A DNA stretch of 64,000 nt from Haloplanus aerogenes (GTDB lineage Archaea > Halobacteriota > Halobacteria > Halobacteriales > Haloferacaceae): contig NZ_CP034145.1 in the NCBI RefSeq assembly GCF_003856835.1, positions 2,108,001-2,172,000 of the forward strand, given 5' to 3'. Below are positions 60,243 to 61,799 of the stretch, piece after piece (positions within the stretch are counted from its first letter, which is position 1; every line of letters starts with the position of its first letter). A program made the position numbers and the translations under genes. The notes below the pieces were generated by a model, which saw only the letters and a list, made by a program, of their open reading frames with translations, did not search any database and was not told the origin of the DNA.

Positions 60243-60298
60243 CGCCACATCTATCAAATTCTGAGGGATTCTACAGAGCCGAGTTATCGCAACTGTGG

Positions 60299-60334
60299 AT
60301 AGATTCTCGCCGGGACAGTCCGGCGAGAATCTAT
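60299..60334. repeat. Perfect 15-bp stem with 6-nt loop
   Basis: ATAGATTCTCGCCGG, loop GACAGT, then its exact complement. It begins 22 bp downstream of the tfs stop (tfs is on the minus strand), so it could be a 3' RNA structure ending that message; no T-run follows. It could also be a relic of a mobile element. Confidence 0.55.
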
Positions 60335-60355
60335 GATGACTTCCGAGAAACTCAC

Positions 60356-60725: not shown

Positions 60726-60983
60726 CTACGCGTCGCCGTCCGACTGCCCGGGTTCGCCCACCGCCTCGACCGGGAGGACGTTCTGGAGTTCGGCGTGCAG
60801 TTCGTCGGGACCGTGGAAAGCGTCGCTCCCGACTTCGGAGACGAGTTCCCCGAGGTTGGCCTCGCCGTCCGCGAAGGTGACGGTGACGTCGACGAATTCG
60901 GCGGCTGCGTCGTCGCGGGTGACCGGGTAGTCGAGTCGCTCGAACGCGGACTCGACTCGGCTCAGTTTCACGCGTTCGCTCAT
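60726..60983 (-). CDS. DUF5789-like protein, chromosomal copy
   Basis: 85 residues: MSERVKLSRVESAFERLDYPVTRDDAAAEF, VDVTVTFADGEANLGELV, then QNVLPVEAVGEPGQSDGDA (in parts). Family of unknown function. It follows immediately upstream of tfs on the same strand, a place I would expect for a conserved gene, whereas the second copy at 58203 is in a repeat-bordered module. Confidence 0.7.
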   Translation of the reverse strand: MSERVKLSRVESAFERLDYPVTRDDAAAEFVDVTVTFADGEANLGELVSEVGSDAFHGPDELHAELQNVLPVEAVGEPGQSDGDA

Positions 60984-61127
60984 ACCCGGTCGTACGACCC
61001 CTCGACACTTAGAGGCGTGGGCCCGGCGTGAACAGTTATGGCGAGAATCGAACCATGAGCAATCGCGAGTGTCTAGTGATGGGACTGGGCTGAGTGGAAG
61101 TCCAACTACCGGGCGTTTTGAGCGCTG

Positions 61128-61207
61128 ATACTGGCGACTGTAAGTCAATCAAGATACTCGTCACTCCGAGGCGACGAGTATCTTGAAACAGTTACAGCCG
61201 CCAGTAT
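61128..61207. repeat. 80-nt near-perfect inverted repeat
   Basis: Stems from outside in: ATACTGGCG / CGCCAGTAT (9 bp), CTGTAA / TTACAG (6 bp), CAAGATACTCGTC / GACGAGTATCTTG (13 bp), with one-base mismatches and a 6x6 internal loop between, and a 10-nt terminal loop. 28 of about 35 possible pairs form. It lies in a 290-bp gap and has no coding capacity; it may be a structured RNA, a MITE-like element or a recombination site. Confidence 0.7.
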
Positions 61208-61218
61208 GAGTCAGCAGT

Positions 61219-61242
61219 TCTATCGCTTAGTCCCGCGATAGA
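61219..61242. repeat. Second hairpin next to the 80-nt inverted repeat
   Basis: TCTATCGC-N8-GCGATAGA, 11 bp to the right of the large inverted repeat and 33 bp downstream of the stop of the minus-strand gene at 61275. It may be a 3' end structure for that gene. Confidence 0.5.
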
Positions 61243-61274: not shown

Positions 61275-61649
61275 TTAACGAACCACTGTCCGGAGATACT
61301 CGAAACAGTCCTCCAGATCAGCGACCGTCACGTCCCCGCGGTCGAGCGTTACGAGATAGCCCGTCTTTCGCCCAGTAGGATCAGTCTGTACGGCGACGAG
61401 TGCCTCGTCGAATATGTGGACTGTTCCGGTGAGCTGTCCACATTTGAACTCGCTTTCGAGTCGTTGAGACATTAACTGTCCGAGTGTGATTTCGTCGACG
61501 ACGCGCTGATCTTCGCGGTCCGTGTAGAGACTTCGGACATCATCTCGCATCCGCGTCTCGAACTCTCCGTTTCGAAAGCTCGTGACTGCCCGGAGTGAGT
61601 CCCCATACTGCGTAACGAGTTGTTCCCACGCTTCGTCAACCGGCAACAT
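61275..61649 (-). CDS. Haloarchaeal protein of unknown function
   Basis: 124 residues. Predicted helical first half (VDEAWEQLVTQYGDSLRAVTSF) and a C-terminal beta region HIFDEALVAVQTDPTGRKTGYLVTLDRGD (in parts). One Cys each in FKCGQ and LEDCFEYL. I recall small haloarchaeal DUF7522-like proteins with this pattern but am not sure. Minus-strand TATTAAAG sits about 27 nt upstream of the ATG, fitting a leaderless start. Confidence 0.6.
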   Translation of the reverse strand: MLPVDEAWEQLVTQYGDSLRAVTSFRNGEFETRMRDDVRSLYTDREDQRVVDEITLGQLMSQRLESEFKCGQLTGTVHIFDEALVAVQTDPTGRKTGYLVTLDRGDVTVADLEDCFEYLRTVVR

Positions 61650-61718
61650 ATCGTCTCCAATCCCCCGCAGCGTCTTTAATATCCCGCCGATTACCGTGTT
61701 GGTAGAGTGATGCTTGAT

Positions 61719-61755
61719 GCGGAGCTGTGACCTCTCTCAGGGAGGTCAACTCCGC
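61719..61755. other. Bipartite hairpin downstream of the gene at 61800
   Basis: GCGGAG and CTCCGC (6 bp) enclose TGACCTC-N7-GAGGTCA (7 bp) with small internal bulges. It begins 45 bp past the stop of the minus-strand gene 61800-62483, consistent with a 3' end structure. Confidence 0.45.
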
Positions 61756-61799
61756 GATCGGACTTGCGTTGAGAGCAGCACCAATCGGCCGCCGTCGTC

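Follow-up and report, generated by a model that had tools for sequence, protein, structure and literature searches.

The palindrome in the window, a 64,000-nt stretch of the Haloplanus aerogenes genome, is almost certainly one copy of a nonautonomous, MITE-like DNA transposon that forms a foldback structure of ∼78 bp. The element is short and noncoding, carries terminal inverted repeats (TIRs), is flanked by a TNA duplication of a fixed length of 3 bp, occurs in many copies, and differs in presence or absence between relatives. Its kind is ordinary, but its design is uncommon and its bias toward stop codons was not expected. An earlier note on this DNA had named a MITE among several options and many copies with target duplications as its mark; such copies exist. 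The note's further wording, that the feature would then be "simply a MITE," holds for the class but leaves out the stop-codon bias and the lack of a detectable parent transposon among those searched.

Structure of the Element in the Window

The palindrome lies where the earlier note had placed it, and both sequence and fold bear out the description as a near-perfect inverted repeat in an intergenic gap. Its proposed extent of 80 nt with three stems of 9, 6, and 13 bp needs revision: comparison with relatives sets the limits of the element at 78 bp, and the outermost pair, A61128/T61207, is part of the flanking TGA duplication (Table 1). The fold comprises helices of 8 bp, 6 bp, and 14 bp plus a 2-bp tip, separated by one mismatch and an internal loop. 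The RNA energy of positions 61100 to 61240 (141 nt) is −66.7, compared to −36.2 ± 3.65 in dinucleotide shuffles (z of −8.36; 0/200 as good), in agreement with the claim that a random origin is very unlikely. As also noted before, no T-run follows the palindrome.

Table 1. Features of the element and of a related hairpin, in window coordinates
Feature	Position	Strand	Evidence
Left target-site duplication copy, TGA	61126..61128		Sequence; same 3-mer on both sides in 60/89 copies
78-bp MITE-like foldback element; in canonical orientation (GTC...CAG) on + strand	61129..61206	+	Profile match, E 6e-21; alignment of 89 copies
Left terminal inverted repeat TACTGGCGACTGTAA (family consensus TACTGYCGGCTGTAA)	61129..61143	+	Alignment; 55/293 genomes of the order carry the TIR pattern
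Asymmetric internal loop, left side GTCAA	61144..61148		Mismatch with the partner at columns 16 and 18 in 70/70 copies of length 78
Inner hairpin, 17-bp stem, 4-nt tip; varies among subfamilies, arm changes coupled	61149..61186		Arm covariation; folds
Asymmetric internal loop, right side AACAG	61187..61191		Arm covariation analysis
Right terminal inverted repeat (TACTGGCGGCTGTAA as read on - strand)	61192..61206	-	Sequence; alignment
Right target-site duplication copy, TGA	61207..61209		Sequence; alignment
Second hairpin, matches inner part of element	60288..60348	-	Weak profile match, E 0.0024

The element is located in a gap of ∼0.29 kb. One neighbor is a DUF5789 gene on the minus strand that starts at 60983, and the other is a 124-aa minus-strand open reading frame (ORF) with its 3' end at 61275. 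According to codon-usage gene calls, no coding signal ends at 61128, and no recognizable stop codon is found at this insertion. In the sister genomes, the upstream gene alone is syntenic and the downstream ORF matches elsewhere, which makes an empty-site comparison impossible at this locus. The adjoining ORF (61275 to 61649) has no Pfam match and is found at nonsyntenic places in three genomes (G008, G002, and G003).

Two further hairpins occur in the window. One, GGAGCTGTGACCTCTCTCAGGGAGGTCAACTCC (61716 to 61756), lies in the gap between the 124-aa ORF and a 230-aa minus-strand ORF. The other (60288 to 60348), ATAGATTCTCGCCGG/CCGGCGAGAATCTAT, is a strong hairpin flanked by two convergent genes; its match covers profile positions 14 to 65, and it retains AACTGT...TGACTT. 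This hairpin may be a degraded relative of the element without its ends.

Distribution and Consensus of the Repeat Family

The family alignment contains 89 distinct copies with both ends, collected from related genomes. Most copies have a core of 78 bp without coding capacity, with the consensus TACTGYCGGCTGTAA - GTCAA - TCAAGATATTCGCCACC - CCGG - GGTGGCGAATATCTTGA - AACAG - TTACAGCCGRCAGTA. The TIRs of 15 bp are found at both ends, and the interiors differ among lineages; TIR sequences recorded are TACTGYCGGCTGTAA, TACGGTCGGTTGTAA, and TACTGGTGGCTATAC. Since both bubble columns are mismatched in every copy of length 78, the bubble belongs to the invariant design of the 78-bp subfamily. Other lineages show the same ends with other, less palindromic interiors of 102 to 108 bp and mostly have TNA duplications; two loci (L169 and L170; family f17, genus g41) hold elements of 105 to 108 bp whose interiors are weakly conserved and nonpalindromic between the same ends. 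G139, a genome of another family with a recent burst, carries three subfamilies with related ends.

Contrary to a unique sequence, for which the earlier note had proposed a search, the element has many haloarchaeal copies. The genome of the window contains three other copies detected in the first search and one read later (L081). Copies are present in 8/11 other genomes of the genus Haloplanus, with up to 16 reported per genome, and the TIR pattern alone occurs in 11/12 Haloplanus genomes. Among 60 relatives searched, copies are numerous within the genus, whereas two other families contribute isolated, weaker matches. Across the order, the terminal repeat alone gives the count in Table 1, and the reversed-pattern control is nearly empty. 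An orientation-specific pattern applied to 84,980 genomes identifies 41 loci, haloarchaeal wherever named specifically, with Halomicrobium katesii, Natrarchaeobius, Natronomonas, Salinirussus, Halovenus, and Natrinema among the carriers. Copies are also located on plasmids of Haloarcula, Halomicrobium, and Haloplanus, and they lack annotation in the plasmid records examined; through a plasmid match, one genome of the genus, G001, was recognized as Haloplanus sp. HW8-1. The viral contigs and phages searched contain no copies.

Several other repeats occur near members of the family. A second dispersed repeat of ∼45 bp, GATACGGGTTATCGGAAGTCAGTACCGGTGGTTCGC, is found with ∼90% identity at dozens of places in four Haloplanus genomes (G007, G009, G002, and G003), and one element copy (L023) sits inside such a repeat. 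A different palindromic element with the ends TAGTGGCCTTTGTAA/TTCCAAATGCTACTA and an apparent TA duplication lies inside an element copy of G009 (L065:2055-2214). The left flank of the copy at L008 contains, shortly before the insertion, GAATCCTCGCGCTTCAGCGCGGGGAGGATGTCAA, which resembles IS200/IS605 (TnpB) right ends and recurs in several genomes.

Evidence for Transposition

Direct duplication of the target is evident from the flanks. The 3-bp flank identity given in Table 1 compares to a mean of 26.6 and a maximum of 42 copies in 10,000 shuffles, and in G139, the triplets are identical in 46/47 copies. The triplets are almost always TNA, with C-TNA-G as the target consensus. An inverted flank match occurs in 1 copy only, and matches of 4 to 6 bp in none of the 89. 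A 2-bp TA duplication of the IS630-like type was considered and rejected because the middle base of the TNA also agrees in 60 of the 67 copies with T.A on both sides.

Empty sites were searched for in sister genomes with the flanks of ten insertions joined at one triplet. Uninterrupted sites with a single TNA were found in sister species for L024 (versus L204, L205, and L216), L002 (versus L210), L023 (versus L199), and L050 (versus L211 and L212); an example is ...cggcTCAtcggcg in comparison to the filled site ...cggcTCA[element]TCAtcggcg. Sister species therefore hold the preinsertion state, which demonstrates transposition. At L224, a related element harbors a nested copy flanked by duplicated TAA. 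The proposed mechanism involves an enzyme supplied in trans that would recognize the terminal repeats and, in the manner of DDE transposases, cut the target with a 3-bp stagger for insertion of the element.

Insertion at Stop Codons

Several of the empty sites ended in the stop codon of a gene, and the association with stop codons was therefore tested, with genes taken from a purpose-built codon-usage caller trained on the window instead of a standard gene finder. In the first set, 32/86 insertions lie exactly on a predicted stop codon, and no other offset within 60 nt holds more than 2. With insertions in coding sequences (CDS) excluded, 32/71 are at stops, versus 8.1% of noncoding TNA sites (p 7e-17) and 14% of C-TNA-G sites (p 2e-10). 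In G139, which serves as an independent set, 12/40 non-CDS insertions are at stops, versus 7.2% (p 1.5e-5), and with both sets pooled, 44/133 insertions lie exactly on a predicted stop. The deposited annotation agrees in the case of Haloarcula hispanica, where the end of HAH_RS18455 (RefSeq), at locus position 1504, coincides with the duplicated left triplet. Insertions at stop codons are thus strongly overrepresented.

Pooled insertions per TNA site amount to 0.169 at stops, 0.056 at +1 to +30, 0.027 at +31 to +90, 0.021 in other noncoding DNA, and 0.0035 in CDS interiors; only the ratios of these rates are meaningful because the stretches counted were centered on insertions. The rate at stops is ∼3-fold that of the TNA sites immediately behind them and ∼8-fold that of other noncoding TNA sites. 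Stop codons are possible targets since TGA and TAA, which read TCA and TTA on the opposite strand, have the form TNA. The target duplication would rebuild the stop and so leave the gene intact, with a hairpin gained directly behind the last codon.

With regard to targeting only, purifying selection alone is a serious candidate for the cause of this enrichment, though a somewhat doubtful one. Here, any TNA would be struck, and the insertions that spare genes and promoters would survive. The strong depletion of CDS interiors relative to other noncoding DNA fits this explanation, as does the suitability of TGA and TAA as TNA triplets. However, TNA sites 1 to 30 nt behind the stop should be equally harmless, yet they carry about threefold fewer insertions, and the excess at stops persists against the C-TNA-G context. 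The stop bias probably reflects a target preference combined with the survival of harmless insertions. A bolder proposal, unlikely on present evidence, is a widespread haloarchaeal system in which an enzyme, perhaps without mobile ends of its own, disperses minimal palindromes with active targeting of stop codons as a safe harbor at gene ends; every insertion would restore the stop and provide the transcript with a 3'-terminal hairpin.

Search for the Mobilizing Enzyme and Comparison with Known Systems

No TIR pair at the distance of an insertion sequence (IS) was detected in the Haloplanus loci examined or, with both arm lists, in G139, save for one interrupted element copy. This TIR pair of 1.49 kb in G139 was rejected as a parent: its two ends belong to one element copy, interrupted by a DDE_Tnp_1 (IS4/ISH8-like) IS that is flanked by a 10-bp duplication of its own, CTTTACGAAC. 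The transposase search covered the DDE_Tnp_1 family, and none of its loci (20 matches in G139 and 30 loci in Haloplanus) shows a TNA duplication together with matching ends. Among the DDE_Tnp_1 loci of Haloplanus and G139, no cognate parent transposon was found. One genome contains ∼100 very similar elements and no obvious transposase.

Duplications of 3-bp TNA targets are known from the IS1031 group of the IS5 superfamily, PIF/Harbinger transposons, and Tourist MITEs. The resemblance to IS5 and PIF/Harbinger (Tourist) lies in this duplication; no IS5-like parent was found among the loci examined, and the analogy may serve as a lead only.

Of the described kinds, haloarchaeal MITEs such as ISH2 and MITEHsal and, from Haloquadratum, the SMRs and PATEs come nearest. 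Prokaryotic MITEs such as Correia/NEMIS, RUP, and ERIC and the haloarchaeal ISH2, MITEHsal1/2, and Haloquadratum MITEs are likewise short, noncoding, multicopy, and dispersed, with TIRs and a target duplication. Unlike those, the present element is palindromic over nearly its whole length, with an asymmetric bubble that is fixed; it duplicates TNA, often lies on stop codons, and yielded no parent IS in the searches. ISH2, one of the haloarchaeal MITEs along with MITEHsal, has ends in common with ISH8 and a target duplication of 10 bp (PMC10264941). The SMRs of Haloquadratum walsbyi are 80 to 110 bp long, with prominent terminal repeats and no related transposon known; no target duplication is reported for them, and their targets are PATE/IS605 palindromes or other mobile elements (PMC3119063). 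The present element resembles SMRs in size, prominent terminal repeats, and lack of a known related transposon but duplicates TNA and favors gene ends, a distinction based on the SMR descriptions. PATEs (IS200/IS605 type) have neither TIRs nor target duplications (PMC3119063), in contrast to the TIRs and TNA duplication seen here. PATEs and SMRs differ from the element by definition because neither makes target duplications. REPs are elements of 20 to 40 bp, mostly tagged with GTAG/CGTC (PMC3733652). REP/BIME elements with RAYT are also intergenic palindromes in many copies, but they differ from the present element with its long TIRs and TNA duplication. In the open-license literature searched, no description of this element family or of stop-codon-targeting MITEs was found.

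Hairpin as RNA or DNA

Selection for an RNA fold, as in a structured RNA or a 3'-untranslated-region hairpin (e.g., a transcription terminator or mRNA stabilizer) that spread by chance, is a very improbable origin. The fold is very strong, many copies immediately follow a stop codon, and the arms of the inner stem covary, with 912/1190 Watson-Crick cells compared to a mean of 761 and a maximum of 794 after shuffling of the arms. Relatedness within subfamilies contributes to this covariation, and a palindromic repeat family can hold its arms equal via conversion or shared subfamily ancestry. Selection on one RNA strand should favor G.U over A.C mismatches, whereas both number 100 over the two stems (18 versus 43 in stem 1 and 82 versus 57 in stem 2), which gives no sign of selection as RNA. 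The orientation of the element relative to the gene at stops is near random (18 to 14), and Rfam models show no match. From the mismatch counts, the Rfam result, and the orientation, the hairpin is read as a property of mobile DNA. Its presence or absence between species, with target duplication, also argues against the structured RNA that the earlier note had considered.

Least probable of all is a recombinase site or a single-strand element of the IS200/IS605 or REP/RAYT type mobilized via its hairpin: the conserved hairpin with its conserved asymmetric bubble, the absence of a DDE parent among the loci searched, and the palindromic basis of REP/RAYT elements and haloarchaeal PATEs would suit it, but Y1/HUH transposition leaves no target duplication, whereas the copies here are dispersed insertions, each with its own clear 3-bp duplication. 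The recombinase site put forward in the earlier note is not supported, on the same grounds, and PATEs differ in their lack of TIRs and target duplications (PMC3119063).

Implications

As a MITE-like family with ∼100 near-alike elements in one genome and no obvious transposase, these elements offer a clean test case. If the preference for stop codons is a property of the enzyme, it would provide a natural route into dense archaeal genomes without the breaking of genes. It would also equip many mRNAs with a defined hairpin at their 3' ends, on which an effect is possible.
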